Below, one piece after another: positions 36,087 through 46,808 of a DNA stretch of 64,000 nucleotides; position 1 is the stretch's first letter, and each line of letters starts with the position of its first letter. Location of the stretch: positions 1 through 64,000 of the forward strand of contig JAPLRP010000039.1 in the NCBI GenBank assembly GCA_026399095.1, written 5' to 3'. A program made the position numbers and the translations under genes. The DNA comes from Methylococcales bacterium. Lineage in GTDB: Bacteria > Pseudomonadota > Gammaproteobacteria > Methylococcales > Methylomonadaceae. Under the pieces are notes generated by a model. That model saw only the letters and a list, made by a program, of their open reading frames with translations, ran no database searches and was not told where the DNA came from.

Positions 36087-36728
36087 ATGGCAAAACCATT
36101 AATACAAATGGCATTAGATTCACTGGATTTCGACGCAACAGTAGGTCTTGCTACTTTAGTAGCACCTTATGTTGACATTTTTGAAATTGGAACTCCATGC
36201 ATCAAACACAATGGTATCAACTTAGTAAAAGAACTGAGAGCAAGATTCCCAGAAAAATTGTTATTAGTTGATCTTAAAACAATGGATGCTGGCGAGTATG
36301 AAGCAACTCCTTTCTACGCAGCAGGCGCTGACATTGTTACTGTTCTTGGTGTATCTGGTTTAGCAACTTGCCAAGGCGTAATCAAAGCAGCAAACGCTCA
36401 TGGCGCAGAAGCTCAAATTGATTTAATCAATGTTGACGATAAAGCAGCTTGCGCAAGAGCAACTTGTGAAGCCGGCGCACAAGTCATGGGTATTCATACA
36501 GGTCTTGATGCACAAGCAGCTGGTCACACACCATTTGCTGATTTAAACCTTATTGCTGGTTTAGGCTTGCCCGTTAGAATTTCAGTTGCTGGCGGCATCA
36601 AAGCATCAACAGTTCAAGACGTAGTCAAAGCCGGTGCAAACATTATCGTAGTTGGCGCTGCAATTTACGGAGCAGCTTCTCCTGCTGACGCAGCTCGTGA
36701 AATTCGCGAATTGGTTGACGCGGTTTAA
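36087..36728 (+). CDS. hxlA: 3-hexulose-6-phosphate synthase
   Basis: A 213-residue TIM-barrel enzyme of the orotidine-5-phosphate decarboxylase superfamily that condenses formaldehyde with ribulose 5-phosphate, the entry step of the RuMP pathway. Substrate- and Mg-binding segments are MALDSLDFDATVGLA, IFEIGTPCIKHNG, LLVDLKTMDAGEYEA, VTVLGVSGLATC, MGIHTGLDAQAAG and VAGGIKASTV. Two bases separate it from hexuloisomerase. A strong promoter candidate and ribosome site precede it, fitting the very high expression expected for carbon fixation in a methanotroph. Confidence 0.96.
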   Translation: MAKPLIQMALDSLDFDATVGLATLVAPYVDIFEIGTPCIKHNGINLVKELRARFPEKLLLVDLKTMDAGEYEATPFYAAGADIVTVLGVSGLATCQGVIKAANAHGAEAQIDLINVDDKAACARATCEAGAQVMGIHTGLDAQAAGHTPFADLNLIAGLGLPVRISVAGGIKASTVQDVVKAGANIIVVGAAIYGAASPADAAREIRELVDAV

Positions 36729-36730
36729 TT

Positions 36731-37264
36731 ATGCATCAGCAACTTATCATAGAAAAGATTTCAGGTGTTCTTGAAGCTACAGATGATACGTATGATGCAA
36801 AGCTGACCCAGCTGCTTGATAACGCCAAGCGTATTTTTATTGCAGGCGCTGGGCGTTCAAAGTTGGTTGGCAATTTCTTCGCAATGAGACTTGTCCACGG
36901 TGGTTACGATGTAAGTGTCGTTGGTGAAATTGTAACGCCAAGCATTAAAAACGGTGACTTATTGATCATAATTTCCGGATCTGGAGAGACTGAACAATTA
37001 ATAGCATTCACTAAAAATGCAAAAAAAGTAGGTGCAAAAATAGTATTGATTTCTGCAAAAGCGGAATCAACAATTGGTGATTTAGCTGATGGCGTATTTC
37101 AAGTTGGCAAGCAAGAGCAATATGGTAAAGTTCTTGGTATGCCCATGGGTACTGTATTTGAACTATCTACTTTGATATTTTTGGAAGCAACTGTTTCTCA
37201 TATTATTCATGAAAAAGGAATTCCTGAAGAAATAATGAGAGAAAGGCACGCTAATTTAGAATAG
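36731..37264 (+). CDS. hxlB: 6-phospho-3-hexuloisomerase
   Basis: A 177-residue SIS-domain isomerase that turns hexulose 6-phosphate into fructose 6-phosphate. The sugar-phosphate loop is in RIFIAGAGRSKLVGNFFAM, and IIISGSGETEQLIAFTKNA is the conserved SIS serine region. The C-terminus IPEEIMRERHANLE contains the expected basic/His tail. It directly follows hxlA in an operon, and the pair detoxifies and assimilates formaldehyde. A hairpin lies shortly after its stop. Confidence 0.95.
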   Translation: MHQQLIIEKISGVLEATDDTYDAKLTQLLDNAKRIFIAGAGRSKLVGNFFAMRLVHGGYDVSVVGEIVTPSIKNGDLLIIISGSGETEQLIAFTKNAKKVGAKIVLISAKAESTIGDLADGVFQVGKQEQYGKVLGMPMGTVFELSTLIFLEATVSHIIHEKGIPEEIMRERHANLE

Positions 37265-37403: not shown

Positions 37404-39398
37404 ATGACTTCGCGCCGAGAATTAGCGAACGCCATACGCGCTTTGAGCATGGATGCCGTTCAAAAAGCAAATTCTGGACATCCAGGAGCACCAATGGGAA
37501 TGGCGGATATCGCCGAAGTTTTGTGGAATGATTTCATGACCCACAATCCGACTAATCCACAATGGTCAAATCGCGATCGCTTCGTGTTATCGAATGGTCA
37601 TGGCTCGATGTTGATTTATTCCCTGTTACACCTGACTGGTTACGATCTACCCATTGAAGAATTGATGAATTTTCGTCAGCTTCATTCTAAAACCCCAGGT
37701 CACCCAGAATACGGTTATGCCCCAGGCGTTGAGACAACAACCGGCCCCTTAGGCCAAGGCATCACCAATGCTGTTGGTATGGCAATAGCTGAAAAAGCGC
37801 TTGCTGCTCAATTCAACAGAGACGGACATAAAATTGTTGACCATCACACCTATACCTTCTTAGGTGATGGCTGTCTGATGGAAGGTATTTCTCACGAAGC
37901 GTGCTCGTTGGCTGGAACATTGGGATTAGGTAATTTAATCGCCTTCTGGGACGACAATGGCATTTCGATTGACGGACATGTTGATGGCTGGTTTACCGAC
38001 AATACACCAATGCGTTTTGAAGCTTATGGTTGGCATGTAATCGCTGATGTTGATGGACACGACCATGTTGCCTTAACTAAAGCAATCCAAATGGCTAAAG
38101 CCATGACAGATAAGCCAACCATGATTTGCTGCAAGACAACTATTGGCTTTGGTTCACCTAACAAAGCAGGCAGTCATGCTTGTCATGGCGCAGCACTCGG
38201 TCAAGACGAAATTAATCTGACTAAAGCAGCTTTGGGTTGGGATCATGAAGCATTTGTCATTCCTGCTGATGTTTATGCTGGATGGGATGCTAAAGCCAAA
38301 GGCTCTAAAGCTGAAAAAGAATGGAATGATAAATTTGCACATTACCAAGCAGCTCATCCTGAATTAGCGGCTGAATATCAACGTCGTATGGCGGGTGATT
38401 TGCCTAATAACTGGAAAACTGATGCGGAAGCATTTGTAAGTGCGGTTAATGCTGAAGCCAAGACAACAGCAACTCGTCTATCTTCATTGGCTGCCATCGA
38501 AGGTTTTGCAAAGATTTTACCTGAAATATTTGGTGGTTCAGCTGATTTAGGCTGTTCAAATATGACCGAATGGACCGGTTATAAACCTATGCGCGCTGAC
38601 AAACCTGATGCTAATTACATCAATTACGGCGTACGTGAATTTGGCATGTCTGCAATCATGAATGGTATTGCTTTGCATGGCGGCTTAATTCCATTTGGTG
38701 CAACATTCCTAATGTTCTCGGAATATGCTCGCAATGCCTTGCGCATGGCGTCTTTGATGAAAATTCGTTCAATCTTCGTTTACACTCATGACTCTATTGG
38801 TCTAGGTGAAGATGGTCCGACCCATCAACCCGTTGAACAAATTGCAACACTACGATTGATTCCAAGCATTCAAGTTTGGCGTCCTTGTGATGCTGTTGAA
38901 ACAACCGTTTCATGGAAAGCGGCTTTTGAAAGACAAGACGGCCCTTCCATTCTGGTTTTTTCTCGTCAGAATTTACCTCATGTTCCCCGCACTCAAGCAC
39001 AAATTGAGGCCATTTCACGTGGTGGATATGTTTTAAGTGACAGCGATGGCCAACCAGAAGCCATCATCATTGCTACTGGCTCTGAAGTTGAACTTGCAAT
39101 AAAAGCAGCTGAAGTTCTTAAAGCCGCTGGTAAAAAAATTCGCGTTGTGTCTATGCCGTCAACTAACATTTTTGATGCGCAAGATGCCGCATATCGTGAA
39201 TCAGTATTACCTTCTGCCGTAACCAAACGTGTTGCAGTTGAAGCAGGCGTGACTGACGGTTGGTGGAAATATGTAGGTACAAACGGTAAAATTGTAGGTC
39301 TCGACCGATTTGGCGAGTCTGCTCCAGCAGGTCAGCTTTTCAAAGAGTTTGGCTTCACCGTTGATAACGTAGTCAAGAACGTAGAAGCAGTACTTTAA
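37404..39398 (+). CDS. tkt: Transketolase
   Basis: A 664-residue thiamine diphosphate enzyme that moves two-carbon ketol units and regenerates ribulose 5-phosphate for formaldehyde fixation. [20 protein letters not shown] opens the TPP domain; [18 protein letters not shown] and DDNGISIDG form the GDG...N diphosphate/Mg motif, [17 protein letters not shown] lies in the central domain, and DGWWKYVG with [16 protein letters not shown] lie near the end. The ribosome site AAAGGAGAATAAT is excellent. It follows hxlAB and precedes two repeat proteins and transaldolase. Confidence 0.97.
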
Positions 39399-39436
39399 TT
39401 TTAAAGAAAAATTATAGAGTAGTAATACACATTAAA

Positions 39437-39510
39437 TTTGGAGAGAGAGCCCGTCAGTTTTATGCTACCAGAAATCTGGCATGTCGGTCTCTCAAACCAC
39501 TTCTTCCGAC
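39437..39510 (+). ncRNA. Structured leader before the GVAKYL-repeat genes (putative)
   Basis: The sequence can fold into one long imperfect hairpin: GAGAGAG pairs with CTCTC, CCG with CGG, ATG with CAT, and CCAG-AAAT-CTGG forms the tip, with asymmetric internal loops between. It ends a few bases before the AGGTGA ribosome site of the first repeat protein. It fits no riboswitch family I know. It may control translation, end the tkt message or be a processing site; this is inference from hand folding. Confidence 0.4.
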
Positions 39511-39525
39511 TTTTAGGTGAACAAC

Positions 39526-40203
39526 GTGAAAAAGAACAATTTAACCAGAGCAGCGTTTGCAGTACTACTATTATCAAGTGCTGTTGCAGGCGCAGATCAA
39601 CAGTATCCAGCTGCAGACTTCCAACCAGAAGTGCTATACCAAAACAGTGACTATATCGCCAAGAGTAGCCCACAAACAACTACGACTAAAGCAGCCTCTA
39701 GCGAATCAGCTACAACTGCTCATGATGAAAAATATCCTGCTGCTGACTTCAAGCCAGAAGTTTTGTACCATGATCCCAATTACAAACATATCGAATCTGT
39801 TAAAGCTAATGCATCAAAAACAGCTGCCTCAAGTACAACAGAAGATCAAAGTGTAAGCACTACAGAAGCAACTGAAGAAACATCTTCTATGTCCATTTAC
39901 TTGGTTGGCTTGTTACTTCTTGCTGGAGCTGGGTTTTATTTTTTCAAAATTACAGCTCGTACTTCTGTACAAAAAAATGCTCCTGCACCAACCAGAAAAT
40001 CTTATGCCGTTAATACTGGTGTTGCGAAGTATTTGAACAAAATATCAGGCACAGGTGTTTCCAGATATTTAGATTCACATGTGAAGTCGGTATCTGCAGC
40101 AACTGGTGTAGCAAAATACATGGCAAAACAATCAGTATCTTCAAAAGAAACTGCAGGTAAAGCTGCGACTGGTGTTGACAAATACATGCGTGACCGAGGC
40201 TAA
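39526..40203 (+). CDS. Membrane-anchored protein with PAADF and GVAKYL repeats
   Basis: About 225 residues starting at GTG (39526), chosen because AGGTGA lies five bases upstream; a GTG three codons earlier lacks a ribosome site. In order: a signal sequence (RAAFAVLLLSSAVAGA), two copies of YPAADF(Q/K)PEVLY in a Thr/Ser/Ala-rich segment, a transmembrane helix (IYLVGLLLLAGAGFYFF), then four C-terminal copies of a short motif (TGVAKYLNK, TGVSRYLDS, TGVAKYMAK, TGVDKYMRD). The order implies PAADF repeats in the periplasm and GVAKYL repeats in the cytoplasm. Two bases separate its stop from the next repeat protein. I recognise no family. Its position between transketolase and transaldolase suggests a link to the RuMP enzymes. 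Confidence 0.7.
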   Translation: MKKNNLTRAAFAVLLLSSAVAGADQQYPAADFQPEVLYQNSDYIAKSSPQTTTTKAASSESATTAHDEKYPAADFKPEVLYHDPNYKHIESVKANASKTAASSTTEDQSVSTTEATEETSSMSIYLVGLLLLAGAGFYFFKITARTSVQKNAPAPTRKSYAVNTGVAKYLNKISGTGVSRYLDSHVKSVSAATGVAKYMAKQSVSSKETAGKAATGVDKYMRDRG

Positions 40204-40205
40204 TA

Positions 40206-40991
40206 ATGAACAAGAAAAACTCGAATGGCTTTTTACCTGCAGTTGCGGGTTTGTTCTTTTTCATGAATAAGCCTAATCCTGAAAACATTTACAGAGATGA
40301 GCCCGTATATCCAGTCTATATCAAAGATGAGTCGGGCTTTACAGGCGTATCAAAGTATCTGAAACATCAGGAAGCACTATTGGAAAATAGCTTAGCAATT
40401 GAGCCCGCTCAATTGCTAAGTGGTGTTGCCAAATACTTGGACGGTCTCGATCAGTATCCAGCCAGTGGCGTTTCCAAATATGTTTTAAGACAGTCTATAG
40501 CAGAAAAGCAAAAAAGACAGTTAAGTGGCGAACCCGAAGTAACTGGCGTTGCCAAATACCTGAAAAATAAAAAACCTGCACCAGAATTGACTGGCGTTGC
40601 AAAATATATGAAGCATCAGGCCACCTTGCCCCAACCCAGTAATGTTGCCAAGTATCTGTCAAAACAAGCTGCTTTAAATGCCTTGCAAGTTAAGCACTCA
40701 AAAGTTGAAGTTTCTGGCGTTGCCAAATATTTGCAAAATCAGGAAAATCTTCCACAACCTAGCAGAGTTGCAAAATACATGGCAAAACAAGCCGCTATTG
40801 ATGCTTTAACTGCCAAAAAAATAAAGCAACCTTCACCATTAACAGGTGTAGCCAAGTACCTTGATGATCAGGCAAGCCTGCCACAGATCAGCAGAGTTGC
40901 TAAATACATGGTTAGGCAAGCTTTAGTTGAAAAACAAAAAACCACAGCGATTGAAACTGGCGTTGAAAAATACATGCGTCACCAGGCTTAA
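40206..40991 (+). CDS. GVAKYL-repeat protein (11 copies)
   Basis: A 261-residue protein almost entirely made of a repeated motif of the form (T/S)-x-V-x-K-Y-(L/M)-x-x-Q, spaced 10 to 35 residues apart: for example TGVSKYLKHQ, SGVAKYLDGL, TGVAKYMKHQ, SNVAKYLSKQ, SRVAKYMAKQ, TGVAKYLDDQ and TGVEKYMRHQ. Linkers are rich in Pro, Gln, Lys and Ala (LPQPS recurs). The N-terminus has a short hydrophobic stretch (FLPAVAGLFFFM) but no clear signal. It is basic and probably elongated. The gene follows a membrane-anchored protein with the same motif and is ended by a strong terminator. I recognise no family; a scaffold or multivalent binder is inferred from the repeated short motif. Confidence 0.72.
   Translation: MNKKNSNGFLPAVAGLFFFMNKPNPENIYRDEPVYPVYIKDESGFTGVSKYLKHQEALLENSLAIEPAQLLSGVAKYLDGLDQYPASGVSKYVLRQSIAEKQKRQLSGEPEVTGVAKYLKNKKPAPELTGVAKYMKHQATLPQPSNVAKYLSKQAALNALQVKHSKVEVSGVAKYLQNQENLPQPSRVAKYMAKQAAIDALTAKKIKQPSPLTGVAKYLDDQASLPQISRVAKYMVRQALVEKQKTTAIETGVEKYMRHQA
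40342..40985 (+). repeat. Coding repeats: eleven GV(A/S)KY(L/M) motifs
   Basis: Eleven copies of a ~10-residue motif are encoded at irregular spacing. The underlying DNA is only partly conserved between copies (variants of ggcgttgcCAAATAt), so selection appears to act at protein level and recent slippage is unlikely. Four more copies lie at 40015-40200 in the preceding gene. Confidence 0.75.
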
Positions 40992-41004: not shown

Positions 41005-41058
41005 AACAAACCACAGTTTAATTGTTAATCAATAAAAACTTAAACTGTGGTTTGTTTC
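41005..41058 (+). terminator. Terminator between repeat genes and transaldolase
   Basis: AACAAACCACAGTTTA and TAAACTGTGGTTTGTT form a perfect 16-bp stem around a 20-base A+T-rich loop, with a T-rich 3' arm running into TTTCTCCC. It ends the tkt/repeat-protein transcript and separates it from tal. Confidence 0.65.
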
Positions 41059-41185: not shown

Positions 41186-42172
41186 ATGGCAAAAAACTTA
41201 TTGGAACAACTAAAAGAAGTCACTGTTGTTGTGGCCGATACTGGCGACATTCAAGCAATTGAAACTTTTAAACCACGTGACGCGACGACTAACCCTTCTT
41301 TAATTACAGCCGCTGCACAAATGCCACAATACCAAGGCATTGTTGATGATACATTAAAAGCAGCTCGCGCCAGTTTAGGTCAAGCGGCTTCTGCTGCAGA
41401 GGTAGTTTCACTGGCATTTGATCGTCTTGCCGTATCTTTTGGCCTTAAAATTCTAGAAATCATACCTGGCCGTGTATCAACTGAAGTTGATGCTCGTCTA
41501 TCTTTCGATACTGATGCAACAATAGCAAAAGGTCGTGACTTAATCGCACAATACAGAGCGGCAGGCGTTGACAGCGACCGTATCTTAATCAAAATTGCTG
41601 CTACTTGGGAAGGTATCCAAGCTGCTGCAGTTCTTGAAAAAGAAGGCATTCATTGTAACCTGACACTATTGTTTGGCATTCACCAAGCAATAGCTTGTGC
41701 TGAAAATGGTATCACTCTGATTTCCCCATTTGTTGGTCGTATCCTTGATTGGTACAAAAAAGATACCGGTCGTGATTCTTATGCTCCTGCTGAAGATCCA
41801 GGTGTAGTTTCTGTTACAGAAATTTATAACTACTACAAAAAGTTTGGTTACAAAACAGAAGTTATGGGCGCCAGCTTCCGTAACGTAGGTGAAATTACTG
41901 AATTGGCTGGTAGTGATTTATTAACGATTGCTCCTTCTTTATTGGCTGAATTACAAGCAACAGAAGTTGAACTACCACGTAAACTTGACCCAGAAAATGC
42001 ATCTAAACTGTCAATTGAAAAAATCTCAATCGATAAAGCTACTTTTGAAGCCATGCATGCTGAAAACCGTATGGCTACAGACAAACTGGCTGAAGGCATT
42101 AGCGGCTTCGCAACTGCGTTGGAAGCACTGGAACAATTACTTGCTGCTCGCTTGGCCAGCCTTGAAGGTTAA
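41186..42172 (+). CDS. tal: Transaldolase
   Basis: A 328-residue class I transaldolase (TalB type) that moves three-carbon units in the sugar rearrangement phase. [20 protein letters not shown] contains the catalytic Asp, TNPSLI follows, and the Schiff-base lysine is in [35 protein letters not shown] and [13 protein letters not shown] are standard. It has its own upstream space of ~190 bases with a terminator, so it may have a separate promoter, and it runs on to fba. Confidence 0.97.
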
Positions 42173-42271: not shown

Positions 42272-43351
42272 ATGTCACAAAAAATTTTAGATGTAATTAA
42301 GCCCGGTGTAGTAACCGGTGAAGATGTACAAAAAATCTTTGCTATTTGCAAAGAAAACAAATTTGCAATGCCTGCTGTTAACGTAATCAATACAGATTCA
42401 ATCAATGCAGCATTAGAAGCCGCAGCTAAAGTTAAATCACCTGTCGTTATCCAATTTTCTAACGGTGGCGCTCAATTTGTTGCCGGCAAGGGCCTTAAGT
42501 TACAAGGACAAGAAACAGCTGTTTTAGGTGCTATTTCAGGCGCACAACATGTACACTTAATGGCAGAAGCTTACGGCGTTCCTGTTATTCTTCATACAGA
42601 CCATGCCGCCAAGAAATTACTGCCTTGGATTGATGGCTTGTTGGACGCTGGCGAAAAACATTTTGCAGCAACTGGCAAACCTTTATTCAGCTCACACATG
42701 CTGGATTTATCAGAAGAAAGCCTGAAAGAAAACATCGAAATTTGTGGTCAATATTTAGCGCGTATGTCAAAAATGGGCATGACACTTGAAATTGAGCTAG
42801 GTGTTACCGGTGGTGAAGAAGACGGCGTTGACAACAGTAACCTGGATCATTCATTACTGTATACACAACCAGAAGACGTTGCTTACGCTTATGAAGAATT
42901 AAGCAAAATCAGCCATCGTTTCACTATAGCTGCTTCATTTGGCAATGTACATGGTGTTTACAAGCCAGGTAACGTTAAACTAACTCCGAGCATTTTAGAC
43001 AACTCACAAAAATATGTGTCTGAAAAATATGGCGTAACAGCAAACACTTTAAACTTTGTTTTCCACGGTGGTTCTGGTTCATCTGCTGCAGAAATCAAAG
43101 AATCAATTAGCTACGGCGTTGTAAAAATGAACATTGATACTGATACCCAATGGGCAACTTGGGAAGGTATTATGAATTTTTACAAGAAAAATGAAGCTTA
43201 TCTACAAGGCCAAATCGGTAACCCGGATGGTGACGACAAACCTAACAAAAAATACTACGATCCACGCGTTTGGCAACGCGCAGGTGAAGAAGGTATGGTT
43301 ACTCGTTTAGAACAAGCCTTTCAAGAATTGAACGCTGTTAATACTTTATAA
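42272..43351 (+). CDS. fba: Class II fructose-bisphosphate aldolase
   Basis: A 359-residue zinc-dependent aldolase that splits or forms fructose 1,6-bisphosphate. Zinc ligands are seen in VILHTDHAAKKL, in the Glu-rich stretch LEIELGVTGGEEDGVD and at NVHGVYKPGNVKL; FVFHGGSGSSAAEI binds phosphate. Length matches the E. coli FbaA subtype. It ends the RuMP block and is followed by a strong terminator shared with the convergent fhc operon. It works with hexulose-phosphate products either in cleavage or in sedoheptulose formation. Confidence 0.97.
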   Translation: MSQKILDVIKPGVVTGEDVQKIFAICKENKFAMPAVNVINTDSINAALEAAAKVKSPVVIQFSNGGAQFVAGKGLKLQGQETAVLGAISGAQHVHLMAEAYGVPVILHTDHAAKKLLPWIDGLLDAGEKHFAATGKPLFSSHMLDLSEESLKENIEICGQYLARMSKMGMTLEIELGVTGGEEDGVDNSNLDHSLLYTQPEDVAYAYEELSKISHRFTIAASFGNVHGVYKPGNVKLTPSILDNSQKYVSEKYGVTANTLNFVFHGGSGSSAAEIKESISYGVVKMNIDTDTQWATWEGIMNFYKKNEAYLQGQIGNPDGDDKPNKKYYDPRVWQRAGEEGMVTRLEQAFQELNAVNTL

Positions 43352-43441: not shown

Positions 43442-44254
43442 TTAAAGCTTGACCAACACTTCACCACGCCCCATTTCAGACATATCACCTGCATAACGCT
43501 GCACACGATTAAAAGCGATAGAGGCATCAGCAAAGCGCGAATTTAATAACTTAAATGAGGCAAACAGAATGGGTAAAAAGGCCAAGGTATGGGCACCACA
43601 ATCATTAAAACTGGCTGACAACGACGGTTGATTCCATAATAACAACGTCCCACGACGCATCGCATAGCCTAAATGGCGACCTGTTTGACCCATGACTGCA
43701 ATTGTTCCTGCTGTCATTCTGGAGCCGCAATAATCACCTGCATTACCTTCAATCAAGATATTACCACGACGCATGTGGTCACCGACACGCTCACCCACAT
43801 TACCTTTAATAAGAATTGTACCGCCTTTCATGCCCATTTTATTGCCTGGCAGTGCCGCACCTAAAAAATCACCGGCATTACCCGACACTTCCAAGTAACC
43901 TTTTTTCATTTCACAAGCGGCATAAAGACCGACATTACCAGACACCTTAATTTCACCGGCATTCATGCCAAAAGCCAAATAAGCGCCTGCATCACCAACA
44001 ACTGAAATACTGCCACCTTCAAGGTCTTTGCCTATAAAGTCGAGGTTATCAAGACTATTTTTAATAACGATATTTTGCGTATCAGCCCCTTCAAGGGCAA
44101 ATAACTCATCAACCCGCAACTTGCATTTGCCACTTTGCAAAGTAATAGCGCTTATATCCGCTAAGGCCATGCCAGTTAACAGATTACAAACCAAAGGCGA
44201 CATATCAACACGTTGTGCAGGTTTGTGTTTTAACGTAAAGGTTAAAGCGCTCAT
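43442..44254 (-). CDS. fhcC: Formyltransferase/hydrolase complex subunit C
   Basis: A 270-residue protein homologous to formylmethanofuran dehydrogenase subunit C. It has the family's right-handed parallel beta-helix repeats, visible as recurring GNAGD/GNVG units (LEVSGNAGDFLGAALPG, ILIKGNVGERVGD, ILIEGNAGDYCGS, IAVMGQTGRHLGYAMRRG). In the Fhc complex it is a structural subunit of the enzyme that turns formyl-H4MPT into formate. It is the last of four overlapping genes and converges on fba across a shared terminator. Confidence 0.95.
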   Translation of the reverse strand: MSALTFTLKHKPAQRVDMSPLVCNLLTGMALADISAITLQSGKCKLRVDELFALEGADTQNIVIKNSLDNLDFIGKDLEGGSISVVGDAGAYLAFGMNAGEIKVSGNVGLYAACEMKKGYLEVSGNAGDFLGAALPGNKMGMKGGTILIKGNVGERVGDHMRRGNILIEGNAGDYCGSRMTAGTIAVMGQTGRHLGYAMRRGTLLLWNQPSLSASFNDCGAHTLAFLPILFASFKLLNSRFADASIAFNRVQRYAGDMSEMGRGEVLVKL

Positions 44255-45147
44255 GCCATAATCTCCTGTAAATGAAAATGGAATGGCCCTAACTTACCAC
44301 CATAATTACCCGCACTAATGCGCTTAATCCCGTTCTTTGCGCCTAAATCACAAACAGCTTGCATACCGACTCGCATAGCCTTATCGATATCTTCTTTCGT
44401 CAAACCATCAATCACAATTTCCATCACCGATTCAATCTCGGATGACAACGCCGTTTTAGTCATTCCTTTTAAAGTAGGACAGAATGCATCGTTGGTTGAT
44501 GCACCCAAGGTTTTGTATTTTGAACCTACTTTAGAACCAGAACGAACCACACCACCCGGAAAAGGCATAATCACATTGGGAATTTTACGCATCTCCTCAA
44601 TCGCTGCTTCACAAGCAGTCAGCGCTTGCGGTTGTGATTCAGCCAACACTAAAAAGTTACCACCACCAATCGCATCGACTTGACCCGTAGTCGCTTCAGC
44701 CAAAAATTCGCCATCCATCACCGGAATACGCCAGTAGCGTTTACCACTAATTTGCTTAGATACCTGAAAGCCATCACCGAAATAACGCAGATTTTTGCCT
44801 AATGGAATTCTGATTCCACCATCAATGCCGGCAAATAATGCTGCCGTTGGCGACGTTAATACGCATTGCCCTGCCCTGGTTTCCAGTTGCTTGGCTAAGC
44901 CTTTACCGCCCATGGCAAATATCATAACTGAAACACCGGGGCGACCATCAGGGGTTTCTGACGGATCTAAAATTCGCTCAATACTGCCTTCGCAACCACA
45001 AGCAATAACCGAAGTAGCAAAGCCCGTCATCGCCTGTGCTGAAATCAATGCCCACTTTTCATTTTGCGCCGTGATAATAGCGCGGGTGGCTTTCATTGGA
45101 AACGCTTCAGCAAACGTTGCATCTATGCTTACGCCGTTAATAATCAT
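44251..45147 (-). CDS. fhcD: Formyltransferase/hydrolase complex subunit D (formyltransferase)
   Basis: A 298-residue homologue of formylmethanofuran:tetrahydromethanopterin formyltransferase (Ftr). INGVSIDATFAEAFPMKATR is the conserved N-terminus; VIACGCEGSIER, TPDGRPGVSVMIFAM and SGKRYWRIPVMDGEFLAE are family segments. It transfers the formyl group from H4MPT to the complex's cofactor. It overlaps fhcA upstream and fhcC downstream by four bases each, so subunit synthesis is translationally coupled. Confidence 0.96.
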   Translation of the reverse strand: MIINGVSIDATFAEAFPMKATRAIITAQNEKWALISAQAMTGFATSVIACGCEGSIERILDPSETPDGRPGVSVMIFAMGGKGLAKQLETRAGQCVLTSPTAALFAGIDGGIRIPLGKNLRYFGDGFQVSKQISGKRYWRIPVMDGEFLAEATTGQVDAIGGGNFLVLAESQPQALTACEAAIEEMRKIPNVIMPFPGGVVRSGSKVGSKYKTLGASTNDAFCPTLKGMTKTALSSEIESVMEIVIDGLTKEDIDKAMRVGMQAVCDLGAKNGIKRISAGNYGGKLGPFHFHLQEIMA

Positions 45148-46808
45148 GCTACGTCTCCTTTAAGCGGATGCACAGAAATACTGCCACGCCCATCTTCGGT
45201 AATCTCATCATTACTGATTTTAAAGTTACCCAACTTCATGGTCATATAGCGATCAAAATAATCTTTTAAGCCTTTTTCAACCGAAGGATCGAAGTCTGGC
45301 TGCACCACATGAGTCGTACCCCATTTGGTAGAAACCACCTTGCCATCAACCACGACCAATTGGCCGTCTTTAAACACATAATCGGGCTTCTCAAACATTT
45401 TTTGTCTATCGTTATTATCCGTATAAACCGTAATATCTGCCCAATTGCCCGCGCTTAAACCGCCCCGGTCTTTTAAACCAATCAATTTAGCTGCACCCGC
45501 ACGCGTCATAATGGCAATTTCTTGTAGCGTATATTCACGCTCAATAGAGGCCAACGTCGTCATTTTTTGCGCTTCAGGATGAATCGTTGACAACACCTCA
45601 TTACGGAAACTTCTGTCCATTAACAACCGTATCAAATGCGGATAACTGGTAAACGGTGCGCCATTAGGATGATCTGTCGTCAAGAAAATACGCCACGGAT
45701 CATCAACCAGCAAAAAGGTTTCCAATCCAATCGCCCACTGCAGCGCATTAACAAAGTTTTTATCTTTATATTTAAAAGGCACAACACCACAACCTGCGTC
45801 ACACTCAATATCCATGGTGACCCATTTATTGGGGCTGGCAAACTTATGATTGGCATGTTGCCGCATATTATCGCCCGATGCGGTCACTGTTTGACCAAAC
45901 AGAATTTGACCCACATCAATGGTAATATTTTTATTTTTGTTGATCGCTTCAGCAATCTGCGCAGCGCCTGATGAAAATTTAAAATCACCTTCAGTACCGT
46001 AACTATGGAACTGAATATGCGTTAAATGCATCGGCAAACCACCAATACCCTGAATGGTATCCAAGGTCGTTTGCACATTACCAGGCACACCCAAATTACA
46101 ACCATGCACATGCAAAGGATGCGTGACACCAATTTCTTTAACTGCTGTTGCCAGAACTTGCAAAATATCACGCGGTGTTACACCGTAATAACAATTCTGT
46201 TCATCCAGATCCAGCTTGCGCTGATTAAACTTAAACGCATTAATACCACCCGGATTAACCACTTTAACCCCGATAGCTTTAGCCGAATGCATCGTCCACG
46301 CGACATAATCATTAATGGCTTTTTGATCTTTTTTGGCGGTTAACATACGCAGCAAATAATCATCACTGCCCAACATCACATAACCGCCTTTATCCAGAAT
46401 CGGAATATCAGCCATTTCCATGTGAGCCTGACGGGCATTAACCGGCAACATAGCCGGTTCAAATCCGGCGGTATAGCCCATTTCGGCATAACGATAGCCC
46501 GTTACAAATGTACTGGGCATGGCATGTCCACAACCGGAACGGGTAATATCACTACGATGAACAGGATCATTCCTATGCTCTTCCGGCAACAACGTTCTGG
46601 CAATATTCCCTTTACCGCCACCAATATGCGTGTGCATATCAATCGCGCCAGACATCACTACCTTGCCTTTTAAATCGTATTCTTTATCAACGACTGCTTC
46701 AGTCGGCTTTGCAACGATACGTCCGTCCTGAATATAAATATCTTGCAGCTTGCCATCAACCCCGCTGGCAGGATCATAGACAGTACCACCTGTTAACTTT
46801 ATCAACAT
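45144..46808 (-). CDS. fhcA: Formyltransferase/hydrolase complex subunit A (hydrolase)
   Basis: A 554-residue amidohydrolase-family subunit, homologous to FwdA. Metal-binding HxH is in GAIDMHTHIGG, with further His in HPLHVHGCNLG and LTHIQFHSYG, and the Asp in FLTTDHPNGAP. It hydrolyses the formyl-cofactor to formate. The ends overlap fhcB (single base) and fhcD (four bases). Length and motifs match FhcA of Methylobacterium and methanotrophs. Confidence 0.96.
   Translation of the reverse strand: MLIKLTGGTVYDPASGVDGKLQDIYIQDGRIVAKPTEAVVDKEYDLKGKVVMSGAIDMHTHIGGGKGNIARTLLPEEHRNDPVHRSDITRSGCGHAMPSTFVTGYRYAEMGYTAGFEPAMLPVNARQAHMEMADIPILDKGGYVMLGSDDYLLRMLTAKKDQKAINDYVAWTMHSAKAIGVKVVNPGGINAFKFNQRKLDLDEQNCYYGVTPRDILQVLATAVKEIGVTHPLHVHGCNLGVPGNVQTTLDTIQGIGGLPMHLTHIQFHSYGTEGDFKFSSGAAQIAEAINKNKNITIDVGQILFGQTVTASGDNMRQHANHKFASPNKWVTMDIECDAGCGVVPFKYKDKNFVNALQWAIGLETFLLVDDPWRIFLTTDHPNGAPFTSYPHLIRLLMDRSFRNEVLSTIHPEAQKMTTLASIEREYTLQEIAIMTRAGAAKLIGLKDRGGLSAGNWADITVYTDNNDRQKMFEKPDYVFKDGQLVVVDGKVVSTKWGTTHVVQPDFDPSVEKGLKDYFDRYMTMKLGNFKISNDEITEDGRGSISVHPLKGDVA

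Follow-up and report, generated by a model that had tools for sequence, protein, structure and literature searches.

A standing problem of C1 metabolism is how formaldehyde production outside the cytoplasm is coupled to fixation within it. In type I methanotrophs, formaldehyde is made outside the cytoplasm and must be fixed fast inside before it causes damage. The locus studied here raises the question of whether two unannotated proteins encoded inside a RuMP gene block take part in this step. In the window, that is, the whole 64,000-nucleotide stretch of a Methylococcales contig (JAPLRP010000039.1) that was analyzed, gene calls and locus comparison placed the genes for 3-hexulose-6-phosphate synthase (hps, 36087–36728), 6-phospho-3-hexuloisomerase (phi, 36731–37264), transketolase (tkt, 37404–39398), transaldolase (tal, 41186–42172), and fructose-bisphosphate aldolase (fba, 42272–43351) on the forward strand. 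The two genes, here called KYLa and KYLb, lie between tkt and tal on the same strand. Genes read as fhcC, fhcD, and fhcA, for tetrahydromethanopterin-linked formaldehyde oxidation, follow just downstream on the opposite strand (43442–46808). Judging from the sequences, we assign a probability of about 0.5 to the reading that KYLa and KYLb, tethered to the membrane, act as a multivalent scaffold that gathers RuMP enzymes, with hexulose-phosphate synthase (HPS) as the most likely client.

The four and eleven copies of a short repeat counted in the initial annotation were recovered exactly, with both open reading frames and all 15 repeats: [TS]GVx[KR]Y[LM] occurs four times in KYLa (39526–40203) and eleven times in the adjacent KYLb (40206–40991), whereas in 5000 composition shuffles neither protein ever reached more than 1 copy, and the mean was about 0.001. 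KYLa, defined by ORF calls and alignment, has 225 aa when read from the GTG at 39526. The frame is also open from an upstream GTG at 39517, and the start at 39526 is preferred because AGGTGA at 39514–39519 reads as its Shine–Dalgarno sequence. From its N-terminus, KYLa carries a predicted signal peptide (39526–39594; ...AVAGA, then DQQ), two periplasmic YPAADFxPEVLY repeats located by motif scan (YPAADFQPEVLY at 39604–39639 and YPAADFKPEVLY at 39733–39768), a transmembrane (TM) helix (SIYLVGLLLLAGAGFYFF, 39892–39945) followed by K/R-rich sequence, and a tail (40012–40200) in which the motif versions TGVAKYL, TGVSRYL, TGVAKYM, and TGVDKYM start at 40015, 40051, 40102, and 40168. The signal peptide and the TM helix were read from the sequence and are kept in the alignment of relatives (A1). 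Since basic residues follow the TM helix, the positive-inside rule predicts a cytoplasmic KYL tail.

KYLb (261 aa; ORF calls, motif scan, and homologues) consists of its eleven motifs with Pro/Gln/Ala linkers between them, preceded by a hydrophobic N-terminal segment (GFLPAVAGLFFFM, 40227–40265) that homologue comparison marks as a possible membrane anchor. Of 93 KYLb-like proteins compared, most had a hydrophobic or amphipathic N-terminus, and one (L033) had a clear TM helix. This segment and the periplasmic repeats were absent from the initial annotation, whose proposal of membrane anchoring and multivalency is supported by the signal peptide and TM helix of KYLa and by the repeat arrays. 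Within its own genome, the KYL array was found at this locus only. Single pattern matches elsewhere in that genome showed no excess over a reversed-pattern control, and the idea that single motifs serve as cargo tags on enzymes was rejected, as counts outside the locus equaled this control.

The surrounding non-coding sequence also has recognizable elements. In the tkt–KYLa spacer (39413–39519, forward strand), comparison with relatives revealed a conserved block TATAGAGTAGTTATACACATTAAATTTGGAGAGA and the conserved element CTTCTTCCGACTTTTAGGTG immediately 5′ of the KYLa start. The imperfect hairpin between them is poorly conserved and was no more stable than shuffles (z −0.5). These elements are possibly a promoter or leader. 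A long hairpin 3′ of KYLb (41005–41056, forward strand; −22.5 kcal/mol, z −4.9 against shuffles) suggests that transcription ends before tal, and it is a possible end of a tkt–KYLa–KYLb transcript.

The motif is strongly conserved. The 879 KYLb and 243 KYLa motif matches gave the consensus [TS]-G-V-[ASE]-[KR]-Y-[LMVI]-x-x-Q, in which the search pattern itself dictates V and Y and the preferences at the remaining positions are measured. In pairwise comparisons with five relatives, pN/pS was 0.01–0.09 in KYLb motif codons against 0.25–0.47 in the linkers, and 0.00–0.03 against 0.33–0.43 in KYLa. The KYL motif codons are thus under strong purifying selection, and the two YPAADF repeats taken together are constrained like them (0.00–0.06, five relatives). 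The number of pattern matches per KYLb ranged from 7 to 17 among 75 homologues tallied; copy number is therefore free to vary, with the motif itself retained. Of the traits that we take to mark a multivalent enzyme scaffold, the KYL proteins show many short conserved motifs in variable linkers and a genetic association with the putative client enzyme; physical binding and clustering of a client, the third trait, are predicted.

KYLa matches were found in 47 of 61 genomes in the survey of relatives. The 80 best named loci almost all carry Methylococcales methanotroph labels (Methylobacter, Methylovulum, Methyloglobulus, Methylomicrobium, Methyloprofundus, Crenothrix, mussel symbionts, and others), and for two of them the label is no more specific than, for example, Gammaproteobacteria bacterium or bacterium. 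As far as the contig flanks reach, these 80 loci, Bathymodiolus symbionts included, keep the order hps–phi–tkt–KYLa–KYLb–tal, which bears out the RuMP gene linkage described initially; one of them (L125) had no KYLb call. In rearranged genomes (L037, L043, and L044), the KYL genes adjoin hps–phi, and tkt or tal may be elsewhere. Loci L043–L045 correspond to a RuMP region that is known to be duplicated in Methylococcus (PMC517821, PMC8527097), and the passages of these papers on that region make no mention of KYL proteins. Two further arrangements were seen. In L177 (genome G308), there are three near-identical hps–phi–tkt units; a KYLb-like gene of 458 aa follows two of them, and KYLa and tal follow the last. 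L033 has an extra 544-aa KYL protein with 17–20 motifs (positions 829–2463), encoded between hps and an additional, second tkt.

The association with hps extends beyond gene order. Of 369 genomes surveyed across the class, six had clear KYL arrays, and hps was present in exactly the same six; the chance of drawing an identical six is 1/C(369,6) = 3e-13, a value not corrected for kinship, as the genomes represent two clades and the counts are not independent by descent. Two weak matches in this survey (G271 and G077, E 4–7e-4) contained no array and were treated as chance. At the order level, 11 of 32 chosen genomes matched the second alignment model (A2), and all 11 had hps. A draw of 289 genomes across the phylum gave no match beyond the window's own genome. 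Neither survey (369 class and 289 phylum genomes) yielded an array in an hps-less genome, so that the wide occurrence in non-methylotrophs named by the initial annotation as evidence against its view was not encountered. The co-occurrence is one-directional: an array implies hps, but hps does not imply an array, as family f6, G057, and G767 have hps without arrays, and the RuMP pathway therefore works without them. Another genome, G806, had no A2 match; between phi and tal it encodes a protein of 59 aa in which a hydrophobic helix is combined with two motifs. The KYL/RuMP contigs G052:C1 and G038:C285, assigned to different families, gave matches at nearly equal E-values and spacing. One of the two is probably misbinned; this appears to be the G052 contig, and f6 was for this reason counted as KYL-negative.

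A second gammaproteobacterial family with RuMP genes (f10, likely Methylophagaceae) carries a TM-less version. The f10 protein lacks both the TM helix and the YPAADF repeats; a GFFxSICGxxKxxFS-like amphipathic segment is followed by 2–8 motifs, and the gene lies between hps and tal or between phi and tal, with tkt and fba not adjacent. The KYL model matched 47 of 49 f10 genomes, a ChpA-type kinase being the sole match in some, and hps is likewise missing from the two unmatched genomes (G805 and G830). Of the confinement to RuMP methanotrophs that the initial annotation proposed to check, the restriction to hps-bearing genomes held and the restriction to methanotrophs did not. At E<=1e-50, no PQQ methanol dehydrogenase turned up in two KYL-bearing f10 genomes (G062 and G422). 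The KYL module thus goes with hps rather than with methanol dehydrogenase or methanotrophy, and the suggested link to the membranes where formaldehyde is made is weakened.

Because the arrays were accompanied by the RuMP signature gene in all array-bearing genomes checked, the KYL proteins are probably membrane-tethered scaffolds for formaldehyde-capturing enzymes. Combining the observed repeats, motif selection, membrane-anchor sequences, hps co-occurrence, and gene linkage, we infer the following mechanism. Both proteins would be mostly disordered, tethered to the membrane, and multivalent. The motif [TS]GVx[KR]Y[LM]xxQ would form a short helix whose hydrophobic face (V..Y[LM]) docks in a groove of the client, and the 4 + 11 copies could bring together numerous copies of the client on the cytoplasmic side of the membrane. 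The formaldehyde trap would then sit where formaldehyde enters the cytoplasm, which would raise capture relative to leakage.

The most likely putative client is HPS, with PHI and transaldolase as possible ones. HPS is favored since hps–phi is the neighbor shared by even the most divergent gene orders, whereas the KYL genes of f10 and L037 have neither tkt nor fba next to them, and no tal lies near those of L037 and L043. Co-regulation could by itself account for the linkage. HPS has family relatives in the PDB. AlphaFold2 models, built as single-chain composites in which neighboring genes were read through in frame, showed the motifs as short helices at low confidence in both models. The composite with HPS gave no confident docking, with the motif blocks at only pLDDT 43–54, and the transaldolase composite did not fold and is thus uninformative; these predictions neither support nor exclude HPS as the client. 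Two HPS positions (E108 and S198) split KYL-positive from KYL-negative genomes, and they were not counted as evidence because PHI also has two such positions.

Other readings have to be weighed against the scaffold, beginning with those suggested by the distribution of the two modules. YPAADF and KYL appear, from the sequences compared, to be separable. TM proteins that combine YPAADF-like repeats with a different, KYL-free tail occur in f6, with RQRANKTKRxRRR or a near variant as the tail end, and in the hps-lacking genome G044; therefore, the cytoplasmic KYL tail appears to be an addition present only in hps-bearing genomes, a pattern that favors the scaffold reading. YPAADF repeats are also found in secreted proteins of about 100 aa in the order, some without TM helix or KYL. 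In L048, L049, L057, L058, and L060, short secreted proteins that consist of three YPAxxFxPxVI-type repeats recur near a sulfate adenylyltransferase gene (read as cysN), and L047:6815-7729 encodes a secreted SRPBCC protein (Polyketide_cyc2, MxaD-like) with three C-terminal YPAxxFxPKV repeats. The spread of YPAADF in secreted proteins and in KYL-less lineages would suit KYLa and KYLb being mainly structural proteins of the envelope or intracytoplasmic membranes, with the periplasmic repeat as the working part. This is doubtful, however, as the cytoplasmic motifs are conserved as much as the periplasmic repeats, and the f10 proteins carry KYL without YPAADF or a TM helix.

A more serious rival takes KYL as a docking motif of general use, recognized by a hub outside the RuMP pathway, such as a positioning, polar, or signaling protein. 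The RuMP-block proteins would then position or regulate some other target through it, and the linkage to hps would reflect co-regulation with C1 growth. A constant place beside RuMP genes, which the initial annotation proposed to check, did not hold for the repeat. KYLa is isolated from hps in G046 (L039), L268 is a further exception, and a third type of KYL protein, with a C-terminal zinc-finger-like Cys/His domain (QCxAxTxKGTQC...C..H), lies away from hps (L264:8300-9049, L265:7779-8555, and L266:7442-8272). Moreover, ChpA-type hybrid histidine kinases (CheA kinase) of f10 (L178 and L208–L211) have about 4–7 motifs in the linkers between Hpt domains. The motif may thus bind something more general, and these kinases and Cys/His-domain proteins are the main reason why such a hub deserves serious consideration. 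We nevertheless regard it as a tentative alternative, as no hps-less genome tested had arrays and hps–phi recurs as the neighbor across otherwise different gene orders. The same f10 genomes share the motif between ChpA and the RuMP-block protein, as would be expected if the KYL proteins sensed RuMP enzyme load or activity and relayed it to the ChpA kinase and the zinc-finger-like protein; such a regulatory device seems improbable, given that ChpA-type arrays were seen in f10 only and that the window's own genome has no other KYL array. On balance, the initial interpretation is partly supported, and the membrane-tethered scaffold is the reading we prefer.

Comparison with known systems places this putative scaffold near enzyme linkers. 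No Pfam or NCBIfam family covered KYLa or KYLb above its curated cut-off with a matched stretch; U1snRNP70_N scored 24.8 bits on KYLb (cut-off 23) with no passing stretch, the best being 20 residues, and was judged to reflect chance or composition. No relative was found among PDB sequences, and a text search of papers for the motif returned irrelevant matches only. CsoS2, the alpha-carboxysome linker, is encoded beside the enzyme that it gathers. This enzyme fixes carbon (PMC13159521), and CsoS2 resembles the KYL proteins in being disordered with multivalent short repeats, but it has a different motif and lies inside a shell, whereas the KYL proteins are membrane anchored with a putative client. 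The CsoS2 Pfam models matched neither protein, and the KYL neighbors are hps, phi, tkt, tal, and fba, with no carboxysome genes or cso/Rubisco operon at the locus. EPYC1, PYCO1, and CsLinker are disordered pyrenoid linkers, each condensing one enzyme, from independent lineages without sequence homology (PMC13159521); unlike the KYL proteins, they are eukaryotic and act on Rubisco, and for the KYL proteins no family or PDB sequence relation was found. By analogy, the KYL proteins would work most like CsoS2 or EPYC1-type linkers, although they fail the sequence and context tests for CsoS2. A literature search of open-licence papers found no natural RuMP scaffold. Engineered Mdh–Hps–Phi assemblies, as described in PMC8879981 citing Price et al. 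2016, keep hps–phi near the formaldehyde source, which is in principle the same goal, but they are synthetic and use a cytoplasmic NAD-dependent Mdh.

A natural, conserved, hps-linked membrane scaffold would make the coupling of formaldehyde production to fixation testable by gene deletion and fractionation. In an extended form, which we consider unlikely, KYLa would organize a trans-membrane formaldehyde metabolon: YPAADF would bind a periplasmic formaldehyde producer, e.g., methanol dehydrogenase or a partner, and the KYL motifs with KYLb would hold HPS, so that formaldehyde would be made and fixed across one membrane patch. Artificial enzyme assemblies already help synthetic methylotrophy (PMC8879981), and a natural scaffold would supply a part for such work. 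For the methanotrophs themselves, the scaffold may bear on an older observation (the KYL proteins would be a candidate reason for it). Work of the 1970s reportedly found hexulose-phosphate synthase to be particulate in Methylococcus, whereas in other methylotrophs it was soluble.
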